In this document: positions 5,542 through 33,419 of the stretch, one piece after another | How positions within the stretch are numbered: position 1 is the first letter of the stretch | Layout: every line of letters begins with the position of its first letter | The notes under the pieces: generated by a model | Database searches by the model: none | Seen by the model: only the letters and a program-made list of their open reading frames with translations | Told to the model about the DNA's origin: nothing | Program-made: the position numbers and the translations under genes | Assembly: GCA_019752815.1 (NCBI GenBank) | Contig: JAIELQ010000008.1 | Span: 1-34,398, forward strand | DNA from: Patescibacteria group bacterium | Lineage (GTDB): Bacteria; Patescibacteriota; Minisyncoccia; Phycocordibacterales; UBA918 | Reading direction: 5' to 3' | DNA length: 34,398 nt

Positions 5542-6757
5542 CGCCAATTGAATAAATCGGTGCAATCAACGCGAGCGCAAAGAACCCTACCCCGCCACCA
5601 ATGACCACCATCAAGAGTGGTTCAATAATCGTTGAAAGGTCTTTGGTTTTTCGCTCTACTTCGGTTTCGTAAAAAATAGCCAGTTCGCCTAACATGCCGG
5701 CAATTTGTCCGGTCTCTTCACCTACCAAAATCATTTCCCCAACGAGTACGGGATACAAATCCGTTCGCTCTACGAATGACTCCGACAGTGGTGTTCCCTT
5801 TTCTACCCGGTCTCGTGCACTGCGAATAATTTGTTTATAAAAATAGTTTTGCACCACCTCTTCGGTAATCTCTAACGCCTGCATCACATCAACTCCTGAA
5901 TTAAGTAACGATGACAGTGTACGCGCTGTACGCGCTGAGTTTGTTTCTTTGGCCAATGTTCCAATCACCGGTAGTTTTGGCACCAGCCACGAGGTGGCAA
6001 TTTTGCCGTATTTAGTTCGGAGTCCATAGAGCAACAGAATAACAAACCCAATCATTCCACCGACTGCAAGCACAGTGTACTCAACAAAGAAATCGCTAGC
6101 AGAAATTAAAAATTGAGTCGTTACCGGCAAATCGGTTCCCATTTCTTTGAACACACCGGTAATTTGCGGCATCACAAAAATCATCATCAGCACCCCAATA
6201 ATAACCATGGCCATTAATACAATCGACGGGTACATCATCGCCCCTTTAATTTTCTTTTTTAGGTTCGCTGAGCGCTCCATTTGCACTGCGAGCGTCTGGA
6301 GTGAATCAGCCAAATTTCCACTCTCTTCTCCAGCCTTAATCATCGCTACATACAAATCACTAAATACTTCGGGGAAAGCAGCCAGGGCTTCAAAAAATTG
6401 CCCACCCTTATTGATGTTATCAATAATTTGTTTTACGACGCCTTTGAGTTTCGCATTAGTACTTTGTCGTTCAATTACTGACAAGGCTCGAGTAATAGTG
6501 AGCCCAGCCGTAAGCATCGAACCGAGGTTGCGGGTCATCATCACGAGCTCATCTTGTTTTACCTTGCCTAACTTATAGTTAATGGCGTCCATATTGATCA
6601 AGTTCTTCAGCGCGAAGCCACTTGATTCTTCAATACTTTCAACCGTATGGTTGTTACTGCGCGCAATATCGTAGACCGCATACCGATCATCGGCCGTCAC
6701 AGTTTCTTTGACTTTTTTCCCTTCGGTATCGAGACCGGTATAGGTAAATTTAGCCAT
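5528..6757 (-). CDS. pilC: Type II secretion/type IV pilus inner-membrane protein PilC (GspF family)
   Basis: MAKFTYTGLDTEGKKVKETVTADDR...MIKAGEESGNLADSL...GEETGQIAGMLGELAIFYETEVERKTKDLSTIIEPLLMVVIGGGVGFFALALIAPIYSIGDGI. Confidence 0.95.
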   Translation of the reverse strand: MAKFTYTGLDTEGKKVKETVTADDRYAVYDIARSNNHTVESIEESSGFALKNLINMDAINYKLGKVKQDELVMMTRNLGSMLTAGLTITRALSVIERQSTNAKLKGVVKQIIDNINKGGQFFEALAAFPEVFSDLYVAMIKAGEESGNLADSLQTLAVQMERSANLKKKIKGAMMYPSIVLMAMVIIGVLMMIFVMPQITGVFKEMGTDLPVTTQFLISASDFFVEYTVLAVGGMIGFVILLLYGLRTKYGKIATSWLVPKLPVIGTLAKETNSARTARTLSSLLNSGVDVMQALEITEEVVQNYFYKQIIRSARDRVEKGTPLSESFVERTDLYPVLVGEMILVGEETGQIAGMLGELAIFYETEVERKTKDLSTIIEPLLMVVIGGGVGFFALALIAPIYSIGDGIK

Positions 6758-15200: not shown

Positions 15201-15228
15201 ATAGCAACCAGGACAGGTTCCAGTAATT

Positions 15229-15320
15229 TTCCTTACAGGAACAGTACACCGTTTGGATATTTTGAAAAAATTCAAAATATCTCAAACGGTTCTGCACAGT
15301 GACATTTGGTCACTGTGCAG
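15229..15320 (+). repeat. Triple-hairpin element copy D
   Basis: TTCC-TTACA-GGAA, CAGTAC, ACCGTTTG g ATATTTTGAA..TTCAAAATAT ct CAAACGGT, CTGCACAGTGAC-atttg-GTCACTGTGCAG. Confidence 0.75.
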
Positions 15321-15365
15321 CCCTAGGAAGGGGCAAATCGGGAACTAAATTCGCCATTGTCACTA

Positions 15366-15444
15366 CTTCTTACAGAAGCTGTTTAGGTTATCGCTCTTTT
15401 TCCAAAAGAGCTGGCAACCTCTTGCGAAAGTCTCCCAGACTTTC
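15366..15444 (+). repeat. Triple-hairpin element copy B
   Basis: CTTC-TTACA-GAAG, CTGT, AGGTT atc GCTCTTTT-tcc-AAAAGAGC tggc AACCT, CTTGC, GAAAGTCT-ccc-AGACTTTC. Confidence 0.75.
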
Positions 15445-15552
15445 TCACTCTGTGGCTCATTTAATTTTCTTTTTCCTGACCAATTTGCTAGGATAGGTAC
15501 GTCTGGTACAACCTCATTCTCTTACCCCAGACCCTAACAATACATCTTATAT

Positions 15553-19886: not shown

Positions 19887-20064
19887 GGGCGAGAAGAATC
19901 GAAACTTACAGTTTCAGTACCCCAATTGGCTGGATTGTTTCGCAAGCTCGCAATCCAGCTCAATCGGGCTTCGATTCTTCACGGAAGTGCGTCAAAGCAC
20001 TTCCTTCGCTCCGCACAGCAACAACAGAAAAACCGCCCCAAAGGGCGGCTTTTCATGTTGGCTG
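19887..20064 (+). repeat. tRNA-Gly(UCC)-associated triple-hairpin element copy F
   Basis: Direct repeat of tRNA 3' end GGGCGAGAAGAATCGAA (19887-19903 vs 20068-20084); GAAAC-TTACA-GTTTC; AGTAC; CCCAATTGGCTGGATTG...CAATCCAGCTCAATCGGG; GGAAGTGC-gtcaaa-GCACTTCC. Confidence 0.85.
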
Positions 20065-26600: not shown

Positions 26601-26834
26601 CAAAAACAAAGAGTCTTAGCTTCTTGCTAAGGCTTTTTGTTTTATGTGGCTTGAGAATCGAAGCCCGATTGAGCTAAATAGTGAGTGAAAAAGTGTATGG
26701 ACACTTTTGCAAGACCTTGCCTGCTATTTTGAAAAATAGTGACAAGGTGTACAGCCTCTGTAAAATGGTACGAACAAATTAGCCAATTGGGGTACTGAAA
26801 CGGTACGTTTCGATTCCCTGCTCCCCGACAAAAA
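26601..26834 (-). repeat. tRNA-Pro-associated triple-hairpin element (copy G) with a second copy (C) nested in its long hairpin
   Basis: 26-bp exact direct repeat TTCGATTCCCTGCTCCCCGACAAAAA (26581-26606 and 26809-26834); reverse strand GAAACGTACCGTTTCAGTACCCCAATTGGCTAA...[CATTTTACAGAGGCTGTACACCTTGtcaCTATTTT-tc-AAAATAGcaggCAAGGTCTTGCAAAAGTGTCCATACACTTTTT]...TTTAGCTCAATCGGGCTTCGATTC. Confidence 0.85.
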
Positions 26835-28796: not shown

Positions 28797-28829
28797 GCCG
28801 TAAAAACAGCCCGCAAGGGCTGTTTTTGG
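28797..28829 (+). terminator. Intrinsic terminator
   Basis: AAAAACAGCCC-gcaa-GGGCTGTTTTT. Confidence 0.85.
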
Positions 28830-28839
28830 TTGAGGGGGT

Positions 28840-29018
28840 GGGAGAATCGGTCACGAATCACTAAGTACATTATTTCGCTACGCTCATAATCTCCAAAGTG
28901 TTCGCGACCCCGACTCGACTGTTGCTAAAGCAACATGTCTCCGTCTTTCGATTCTCCACGTAAAGCGCGCAGGCGCTTTACTCTGGCCGCAAAAAAGACC
29001 CTTTCGGGTCTTTCTTTG
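28840..29018 (+). repeat. tRNA-Gly(GCC)-associated triple-hairpin-like element copy H (divergent)
   Basis: GGGAGAATCG repeat of tRNA end (28840-28849 vs 29027-29036); GGTC a CGAA t CACT...ATTAT..ATAAT...AGTG TTCG c GACC; internal TTTCGATTCTCC; GTAAAGCGC-gcag-GCGCTTTAC; CTGGCCGCA..TGCGGCCAG palindrome into tRNA. Confidence 0.65.
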
Positions 29019-31538: not shown

Positions 31539-31744
31539 GGGACTCGGTCCTTACAGGACCAGTACCCCAAATTGGCTGGATTGTTTCGCAAGCTCATAAT
31601 CCAGCTCAATCGGGCTTCGAGTCCCTCCCAGGGACTCGAACTCTACGAGTTCAGTACACCTTGTCGCCATTTTGTTTCCTTGCAGTCACAAAATTGCTGG
31701 CAAGGTCTTCGAGTCCCTCCCGCGAGTGACATTTAGTCACTCGC
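31539..31744 (+). repeat. tRNA-Arg-associated tandem triple-hairpin elements (copies E1 and E2)
   Basis: E1: GGTCC-TTACA-GGACC AGTAC CCCAAATTGGCTGGATT...AATCCAGCTCAATCGGG CTTCGAGTCCCTCCC; E2: AACTC-tac-GAGTT CAGTAC ACCTTG...CAAGGT CTTCGAGTCCCTCCC GCGAGTGAC-attta-GTCACTCGC; AGGGACTCGAAC at 31630 repeats tRNA end at 31801. Confidence 0.85.
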
Positions 31745-31747
31745 TCG

Positions 31748-31799
31748 AGTGCACACATGAAAAAGACCCCAAATGGGGTCTTTTTCATGTGTGCACTCG
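31748..31799. terminator. Very long palindromic terminator fused to the tRNA-Arg acceptor end
   Basis: CGAGTGCACACATGAAAAAGACCCC-aaat-GGGGTCTTTTTCATGTGTGCACTCG (25-bp arms). Confidence 0.9.
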
Positions 31800-31863
31800 G
31801 AGGGACTCGAACCCCCGACGACTGTTCCGAAGACAGTAATGATATCCACTTCACCACGAGTGC
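31793..31863 (-). tRNA. tRNA-Arg (anticodon UCG)
   Basis: GCACTCGTGGTGAAGTGGATATCATTACTGTCTTCGGAACAGTCGTCGGGGGTTCGAGTCCCTCCGAGTGC; no encoded CCA. Confidence 0.93.
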
Positions 31864-31949: not shown

Positions 31950-33419
31950 ATGATTGCTCACTCGTCGATTCCGCTTGAGGTTAAAAAAGTATCAGACGCG
32001 CTTGAGATGGCGGGGTTTGAAGCGTATTTGGTGGGGGGATGTGTACGGGATTTGGTGACCGGTCGGGCACCAAAAGACTGGGATATCACCACCAACGCCC
32101 ACCCTGACCAGATCATGGCGTTGTTTCCTGATAGTTTTTGCAACAACGACTATGGTACTGTCGGGGTAAAGAACGAAGAAACCGAGGATCTGCGGTTAAA
32201 GGTGGTTGAAGTGACGCCGTACCGGAGCGAAGGCACCTATACTGACGCCCGTCGGCCGGATTCAGTTACATTTGGTGTAAGTTTGGAGGAAGACCTGGCT
32301 CGCCGGGACTTTACCATCAACGCTATTGCGTACCGGATTAAAACAAATGAGACTGTCGATTTATATGATGGAGTAGGGGATATTCGTAAAAAACGGATTA
32401 AAACTGTCGGTAATGCCGAGGAACGATTTGGCGAGGATGCGCTGCGGTTAATGCGCGCGGTACGCCTGGCAGCTGAGCTTAACTTTATGATTGAGAGCGA
32501 GACTATGGCTGGAATTATAGCTAAATCGTCACTGCTTGAGAAAATTGCTATCGAACGGGTTAGTCAGGAATTTGTAAAATTGATTAACTCGAACGCTCCA
32601 ATGCAGGGAATTGCCCTACTTGAGAAGCTCGGACTACTACCATACGTACTCCCAGAAATTATTCCGGCTATTGGCTGTGAACAGGGCGGAATTCATGCCT
32701 ACGATGTGTTTGAACACAGTTTACGCACACTGCAGGCAGCAGCCGATAAAGAATTCAGCACCAACCTGCGTTTGGCGGCGTTACTCCACGATATTGGTAA
32801 ACCAGCGACGCGGGGCACAGGTGGTAAAAACAAACACTATACGTTTTTTGGGCACGAGGTGGTAGGAGCCCGCATGGCTAAAAAGATACTGCAGCGCCTG
32901 AAAATGTCCCGCGATACTATCGAAGCAGTAGAAAAACTAGTCCGTTGGCACATGTTTTTTAGTGATCCAGATGAAATCACCCTGGCGGCCGTACGCCGAA
33001 CCATTGTGCGCATTGGTGAAGACAACATCTCCAATCTACTTAATCTCCGGGTTTGTGATCGCATTGGTACCGGCAGACCAAAAGAGCAGCCATTTCGCTT
33101 CCGTAAATACAAAGCCATGGTAGACGAGGCTCTGCGCGACCCAATTTCCGTTAAAATGCTCAAAATAAACGGCGAAACAATCATGAATATCACTGGGGAA
33201 AAGCCGGGGAAAAAGCTGGGATATATCCTAAATACCTTGTTGGAGGAGGTGTTGACAGACAGTGGAAAAAACACCGCCGACTACTTAGAATCCCGTGTTG
33301 TAGAGCTCAATCAAATGTCTGAGGCAGTACTCGCCACCCTCGCTGAAGCTGGTAAAAAGAAACAAGCCGAGGAAGAAGCTGCTGAACTAAAGAAAATCGC
33401 CAAAGAACACAACGTTTGA
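31950..33419 (+). CDS. cca: CCA tRNA nucleotidyltransferase with HD domain
   Basis: YLVGGCVRDLVTGRAPKDWDITTNAHPDQIMALF, RRDFTINAIAY, LRAALLHDIGKP-type HD motif. Confidence 0.94.
   Translation: MIAHSSIPLEVKKVSDALEMAGFEAYLVGGCVRDLVTGRAPKDWDITTNAHPDQIMALFPDSFCNNDYGTVGVKNEETEDLRLKVVEVTPYRSEGTYTDARRPDSVTFGVSLEEDLARRDFTINAIAYRIKTNETVDLYDGVGDIRKKRIKTVGNAEERFGEDALRLMRAVRLAAELNFMIESETMAGIIAKSSLLEKIAIERVSQEFVKLINSNAPMQGIALLEKLGLLPYVLPEIIPAIGCEQGGIHAYDVFEHSLRTLQAAADKEFSTNLRLAALLHDIGKPATRGTGGKNKHYTFFGHEVVGARMAKKILQRLKMSRDTIEAVEKLVRWHMFFSDPDEITLAAVRRTIVRIGEDNISNLLNLRVCDRIGTGRPKEQPFRFRKYKAMVDEALRDPISVKMLKINGETIMNITGEKPGKKLGYILNTLLEEVLTDSGKNTADYLESRVVELNQMSEAVLATLAEAGKKKQAEEEAAELKKIAKEHNV

Follow-up and report, generated by a model that had tools for sequence, protein, structure and literature searches.

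Two structured elements, E2 (type II) and then E1 (type I), are arranged behind a tRNA-Arg(UCG) gene (31539-31744, minus strand, i.e., the tRNA sense), and they probably represent two types of one family of structured mobile elements, miniature and non-autonomous, which is confined to a single order of Paceibacterota and whose core insertions have been stacked at this tRNA; the nature of the family and the history of the locus were judged jointly. The window, i.e., the whole stretch of DNA that was analysed, is contig C8 (34398 bases) of the 1.04-Mb genome G000, which is 99.97% complete.

Organization of the tRNA-Arg(UCG) locus

In tRNA sense the order of the locus is T - S (terminator) - rcT - E2 - T - rcT - E1 - T, the 3' part of the tRNA being repeated in inverted orientation before, and in direct orientation after, each of the two elements. 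The first-pass annotation had described two elements with these sequences and repeats behind the tRNA and had assigned them to different HP2 subtypes; repeat, pairing and folding analyses bear out the former, and the subtypes correspond to the H2 hairpins of type I (E1) and type II (E2). Its reading has been corrected on two points: the biological orientation is that of the minus strand, and the unit begins at the tRNA and takes in its terminator.

The host gene, found by ARAGORN and as an Rfam tRNA, spans 31791-31863 (minus strand, as are all the features of the locus described below), and the limits of the direct repeats set the copied segment at tRNA positions 54-74 (TTCGAGTCCCTCCGAGTGCAC, 31791-31811). 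The inverted-repeat search revealed S, a palindrome around the tRNA terminator (31746-31799), whose arms (31746-31771 and 31774-31799) are 26 nt each and 100% complementary; in the outer part of S (31746-31754) the acceptor end of the tRNA is repeated in inverted orientation. A small hairpin, hp1 (GCGAGTGAC-loop-GTCACTCGC, 31722-31744), is located between the inverted copy of the acceptor end and that of the T arm, a position that it also occupies at other tRNAs. On the plus strand, an ORF adjoining the tRNA (31950-33419) reads, by inspection, like a CCA-adding enzyme.

The first unit continues with the inverted T-arm copy, rcT (positions 54-65; 31708-31721), recognized from inverted repeats and from the general pattern elsewhere, with the type II hairpin H2 of E2 (ACCTTGCC-A-GC ... 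GGCGACAAGGT, 31658-31706) and with the hairpin H3, which has a GTA loop (GAACTC-GTA-GAGTTC, 31638-31652); it ends with a direct copy of tRNA positions 57-64 (31630-31637), truncated in comparison with the full copies seen elsewhere. The second unit comprises a second inverted T-arm copy (31616-31626), the type I H2 of E1 (GCCCGATTG-A-GCTGGATT ... AATCCAGCCAATTTGGGG, 31565-31615), an H3 again with a GTA loop (GGTCC-TGTAA-GGACC, 31546-31560), and, as the outer E1 border, a distal direct copy of positions 57-63 (GAGTCCC, 31539-31545), so that the tRNA sequence extends over 7 nt only and is decayed beyond. The sequence CTTCGAGTCCCTCCC, which occurs twice (31615-31629 and 31707-31721), matches the T-arm/acceptor 3' strand of tRNA-Arg(UCG). 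At the E1 border GGGACTCG (31539-31546) pairs with CGAGTCCC (31618-31625), and at the E2 border AGGGACTCGAA (31630-31640) pairs with TTCGAGTCCCT (31708-31718). An inverted repeat also exists between the two elements (TTCGAGTCCCT-ccc-AGGGACTCGAA, 31616-31640); it had been read as a third hairpin of E1 formed with the start of E2, and the pairing is there, but it is the junction between the direct copy ending the E2 unit and the inverted copy with which the E1 unit begins. These two copies are only 3 nt apart (31627-31629), so the terminator expected between them, by comparison with the Asp and Gln units, is missing, which suggests a deletion.

Folded as a single strand, the minus strand gives z scores of -4.55 for E2 and -2.66 for E1. 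In both cases the fold is a three-helix junction: the two tRNA copies pair as a border stem, H2 contains a bulged A, and H3 is closed by its GTA loop.

Structure and distribution of the family

A covariance model, R1, was built from 13 copies of G000, with both E1 and E2 in the training set. It detects E1 and E2, as training sequences, at E values of about 1e-25, and copies from other genomes, independent of the training set, reach equal or higher scores. R1 matches 41 copies in G000, and matches were retrieved in 37 of the 38 genomes of the genus (0-56 copies per genome) and in 153/297 genomes of the order (93/165 genera). In the phylum sample they are confined to genomes of the order, with none outside; the named relatives are Candidatus Kaiserbacteria, Nomurabacteria and other Paceibacterota. 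A third, longer type (type III), sharing the same plan, was seen by eye and lies outside the R1 counts.

Among the 13 copies of G000, 95.6% of the cells are paired, vs. 71.2% after shuffling, and 25 of the 33 pairs have changed on both sides. With 125 distinct copies the values are 94% and 65%, respectively, in an alignment fitted to the model and hence favouring the structure; in this alignment, all pairs in H2 and in the border stem display compensatory change. On the tRNA-sense strand, G-T wobbles outnumber A-C mismatches (104 vs. 33, not counting a C-A position that is conserved in type II), and because of this excess it is probably the tRNA-sense strand that folds, as RNA or as single-stranded DNA.

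In the Rfam search only tRNA exceeded the gathering score, and in a permissive search everything else fell below the gathering cut-offs; a self-cleaving ribozyme or another Rfam RNA was rejected for want of any such match. A viral origin was also rejected, as three patterns had no match in viral contigs.

The window contains further copies. A type I copy with Gly-specific borders, matched by R1, follows tRNA-Gly(UCC) (19894-19979, minus strand), and a type III relative with a T-S-rcT-E-T plan, recognized by inspection and outside R1, follows tRNA-Gly(GCC) (28829-28962, minus strand). Behind tRNA-Pro(UGG) there is a type I copy with a type II-like copy nested in its H2 loop (26653-26818, plus strand) and with the tRNA end repeated in full, in direct orientation, at 26809-26829; type II is also nested in a type III copy behind tRNA-Val(UAC) (G000:C6 6965-7023). 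Two copies (15221-15445, minus strand; R1 matches at 15221-15294 and 15365-15423) are not beside a tRNA, and the existence of some copies away from tRNAs counts against the explanation as a whole.

Other copies occupy unusual sites. At L085 and L094 (G000:C9:19150 and C3:16674) they are located at the 3' ends of protein genes, and, as at tRNAs, the gene end is repeated in inverted orientation on their left side. A two-unit array with tRNA-Gln borders, devoid of a tRNA gene (L046:1181-1550; G000:C2:127180-127550), begins exactly at T54, at the passage from ttttag to TTCGAGTCCC. At L150:5865-6010 (G029) and in G000:C6 near 6166-6250, the 5' half of a tRNA-Arg(UCU) is followed by hp1-H2-H3 and then by GATTCC, so that the element sits directly in the T loop of the tRNA fragment. 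Lastly, at L148 (G011:C13, a contig end) a tRNA-Arg and its terminator precede a longer inverted copy that extends into the tRNA and is either a fold-back assembly artefact or a genuine palindrome.

Borders copied from the local tRNA

The borders were compared in 61 copies lying on the same strand as, and mostly 45-90 nt after, tRNAs of 25 isoacceptors. A perfect direct copy of positions 57-65 of the own tRNA is present in 57% of them, vs. 1.1% for other tRNAs; the corresponding values are 56% and 0.3% for the acceptor strand, and 64% and 11% for the inverted T-arm copy. Tested by position, nucleotides 59-72 of the tRNA (14 nt) recur perfectly downstream at 53 of 214 tRNA loci (control, 1 in about 2000). 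The direct repeat begins within the T loop and has a sharp end at C74 (exactly there in 26/65, earlier in 3); in most of the others it fades out over a few bases.

An inverted copy lies between the tRNA and the first direct copy at 60 of 71 loci, and in arrays the copies alternate direct - inverted - direct. Neither copy is present at 90 of the 202 tRNA loci of the fetched sample, and, among the tRNA loci examined, inverted copies are practically always followed by an element. The stem of the inverted copy corresponds to rc(61-65) and not to the 49-53 strand of the tRNA itself (20 vs. 4 informative loci), and the idea that the inverted copy is the relic of a second, degenerate tRNA, with 5' strands of its own, was rejected on this basis.

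Mobility of the core

Some cores located behind different tRNAs are nearly identical: those behind tRNA-Leu(CAA) and tRNA-Tyr(GUA) in G029 share 100% identity, and 99% is shared by those at an Asp-like 3' end and at Leu-CAG in G061 and by those at Lys-CUU and Leu-UAG in G002. Once aligned, the identity begins at ..GAAG, covers H2 and H3 and breaks off after ..TTC; the T-arm copies are local on both sides, and the terminator and hp1 differ. Since the flanks are local, these pairs show that the core itself moves, the mobile part corresponding to about 70 nt (H2 plus H3). Five of the six borders of these cores are perfect over 9 nt or more, and the sixth has one G-T; judging from these borders, freshly moved cores already carry local borders.

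This bears on the proposal that the borders have no dedicated mobility, an element whose T-arm ends are generic landing close to a tRNA and quasipalindrome template switching during replication later perfecting its inverted copy. It is established that imperfect inverted repeats are corrected in this way in E. coli (PMC7202029), long perfect palindromes do surround the terminators (26 nt at tRNA-Arg(UCG)), and the preference for rc(61-65) agrees with it; but cores with 99-100% identity already have matching local borders, and a direct copy stopping at C74 is left unexplained, which makes this course of events quite improbable.

The same pairs bear on a different possibility, i.e., that an old T-S-rcT-()-T scaffold was duplicated in tandem and that the E1 and E2 cores were then replaced by recombination, through gene conversion bounded by the TTCGAA common to both ends, in which case the two-unit array would not record two insertions. 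The near-identical cores speak for it, since their terminators and hp1 differ and their identity stops exactly at TCGAA / TTC; besides, whole-unit tandem duplications exist, as at L188, where identity extends to position 225. However, E1 and E2 are of different subtype, and the virtual absence of rcT without an element, together with the many orthologous loci devoid of the scaffold, indicates that scaffold and core are normally gained together. We regard core exchange as rather unlikely.

As for hp1, the same insert of about 90 nt is found inside it behind tRNA-Ser-UGA and tRNA-Leu-CAA of G029 (L151, L152), so hp1 also seems to be mobile or a target. Moreover, a terminator-hp1 block of almost the same sequence (ACAGGTAAAA.AAAAACAC...) is located past the distal copies at tRNA-Arg(UCG) of G015 (L141, after 1740) and at tRNA-Val(UAC) of G029 (L150:5540-5620).

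Occupancy of orthologous tRNA-Arg(UCG) loci

The comparison of orthologous loci suggested by the first-pass annotation was carried out on 25 tRNA-Arg(UCG) loci of the genus, 24 of which were readable, and the two-unit structure turned out to be variable rather than invariant. Several loci have no element (e.g., L138, L139, L142, L143 and L134); others harbor a single type I (L133, L135), a single type II (L141, L145) or, by inspection, a single type III (L127, L129, L130, L132, L140). Some contain remnants, and two elements are present in G000 only. None of the strain pairs has the G000 locus with one unit.

At L141, the terminator beyond the distal tRNA copy resembles that of the element-free L138, and at tRNA-Met the native terminator is likewise found beyond the distal copy (G033 vs. 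G026). This is what would be expected of an insertion into the tRNA end that regenerates an intact tRNA, and it supports such an event.

A functional RNA kept by selection behind tRNAs, either a processed tRNA-like small RNA (comprising an acceptor-like stem, hp1 and a T arm extended by a three-way junction) or a trailer with a regulatory role, would account for the strong covariation, for the wobble asymmetry in favour of the tRNA-sense strand and for the terminator often following the distal copy. Against it stand the orthologous tRNAs at which the element is absent, single or of another type, the 90 tRNA loci with neither copy, the copies away from tRNAs, and the mosaic and nested copies; we therefore hold it to be very unlikely.

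Since occupancy varies, the pattern is found genome- and order-wide, and the core moves, the accretion of elements behind tRNAs is well supported. The serial insertion proposed at the outset thus stands as far as insertion is concerned, with variable occupancy, near-identical cores and native terminators beyond distal copies behind it. There may have been two separate arrivals, with E2 as the later one, and duplication of a unit plus core exchange might also have led to the same array.

Candidate enzymes

No enzyme that might move the elements was found among the candidates examined (RVT_1, PF00589 and a Y1/RAYT-like gene). Reverse transcription as a requirement was rejected, as element-rich genomes (G060, G002, G037, G044, G045, G048, G056 and others) have no RVT_1 match. 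The RAYT-like Y1 gene is present in half of the genus; the G000 copy (L204:2840-3535; G000:C1:193340-194035) is flanked on both sides by a ATCTTAGGGGTT(T)AACCCCTAAGAT palindrome (AATCTTAGGGGTTTAACCCCTAAGATT-type), and no R1 match was found near divergent Y1 genes in 20 loci. Even though genomes with the gene have more elements than those without it (17.1 vs. 6.7 copies, p = 5e-4, kinship being ignored), the gene was rejected as a direct partner, because it has palindromes of its own and no elements nearby. Genome G026 has no elements and only a broken Y1 copy.

Alternatively, as with integron arrays or integrative elements targeting tRNAs, the T loop might be an attB/attI-like site where a tyrosine recombinase inserts units, the folded rcT-E-T acting as an attC-like single-stranded site and the newest unit lying next to the tRNA. 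A directly repeated stretch between the T loop and the 3' end of the tRNA is indeed the classic footprint of tRNA integration (Williams classification, as cited in PMC2647930); the bulged A of H2 is conserved, the ectopic Gln array starts at T54, and PF00589 (Phage_integrase family), represented by one gene in G000, is matched in 278/297 genomes, a frequency that makes it uninformative; the element itself contains no such gene. Yet in integrative elements of this kind the tRNA end is that of their own target, whereas here the same core is combined with different tRNA ends. In addition, the single recombinase of G000 is likely a housekeeping Xer type, elements are borne by G101, G219, G235 and other genomes with no recombinase match (some of them incomplete), and the polarity of nine arrays, with the newest unit next to the tRNA, gives 3 vs. 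1 with 5 ties (p = 0.19, not significant). Overall, we find recombinase-driven insertion unlikely.

Proposed explanation

The explanation that we favour, core insertions stacked at the tRNA, would leave an intact tRNA, its terminator, an inverted copy of the tRNA 3' end (to T54), the core, a direct copy of positions 57-74 and then the old downstream DNA. As an intact T loop would be regenerated each time, the same tRNA could be used again, giving rise to arrays such as E2-E1. At tRNA-Arg(UCG) two separate insertions might have occurred, E2 being presumably the later one because it is nearest to the tRNA and has better borders, although the polarity of arrays is not significant, and the terminator between the E2 and E1 units might have been lost by palindrome deletion.

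As to the reaction itself, more tentatively, the tRNA-sense strand may fold as a single strand and be joined at the T loop, either by a DNA integrase or by a replication-coupled template switch at the terminator hairpin, and the joining step may copy the local tRNA end in both orientations. Since S and hp1 differ in recent pairs, the core might perhaps be swapped into older scaffolds and not inserted afresh. It is conceivable, though we would put it below even chances, that the elements form a gene-less mobile class making its own border stem from the tRNA 3' end of each new target, in inverted plus direct orientation. If so, the folded strand would always be closed by local sequence, leaving the tRNA intact and reusable.

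Comparison with known systems

No description of such elements in Patescibacteria was found in the literature collection searched, which is incomplete. They would thus represent abundant, apparently undescribed structured mobile DNA concentrated at the tRNA ends of strongly reduced genomes (mostly 0.6-1.1 Mb), of relevance for genome change in the candidate phyla radiation and for the annotation of tRNA flanks, and the dozens of tRNA targets per genome offer natural replicate experiments on the reaction.

Tyrosine-recombinase elements of the T-loop class share with them the direct tRNA 3' repeat starting from the T loop, the regeneration of an intact tRNA and the possibility of serial occupancy; the tRNA-end family differs in its size (~130-150 nt), in the lack of genes, in having an inverted copy too, and in the same core being provided with local ends at many tRNAs. 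Casposons and CRISPR-like Cas1 integration have in common with it, on a comparison of footprints only, the integration at tRNA 3' ends, the duplication of a target of fixed length (14-15 bp there, PMC6614799, PMC4046053; 18 nt here) and the repeat-unit-repeat growth; however, the tRNA-end family has no genes or long terminal inverted repeats and has an inverted target copy. The perfect inverted copies also resemble the products of quasipalindrome template switching (PMC7202029). Taken alone, neither tyrosine-recombinase or casposon-like integration nor template switching explains the local borders of freshly moved cores, and no familiar transposition scheme explains a border that depends on the target. 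Integron attC arrays provide an analogy only, in the alternating repeat-unit array and the folded single-strand site; unlike them, the tRNA-end family has no cargo genes, and its target is the tRNA T loop.

Like REPINs and REP sequences with their RAYT (TnpA-REP; PMC3116915, PMC8266576), the tRNA-end elements are miniature, non-autonomous, dispersed and hairpin-forming, with compensatory changes, and single-strand structure likely matters in both. They differ from REPINs in the three-way structure, in having tRNA 3' ends as the main target, in borders copied from the target and in the duplication of the tRNA end. Two inverted REPs form one long hairpin, whereas the consensus here is a border stem closing the H2/H3 junction, and the REP doublet with matching hairpins near a RAYT gene has no counterpart in this family. 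By the features compared, the tRNA-end elements are best placed among miniature structured mobile repeats, outside REPINs, integrons and casposons.
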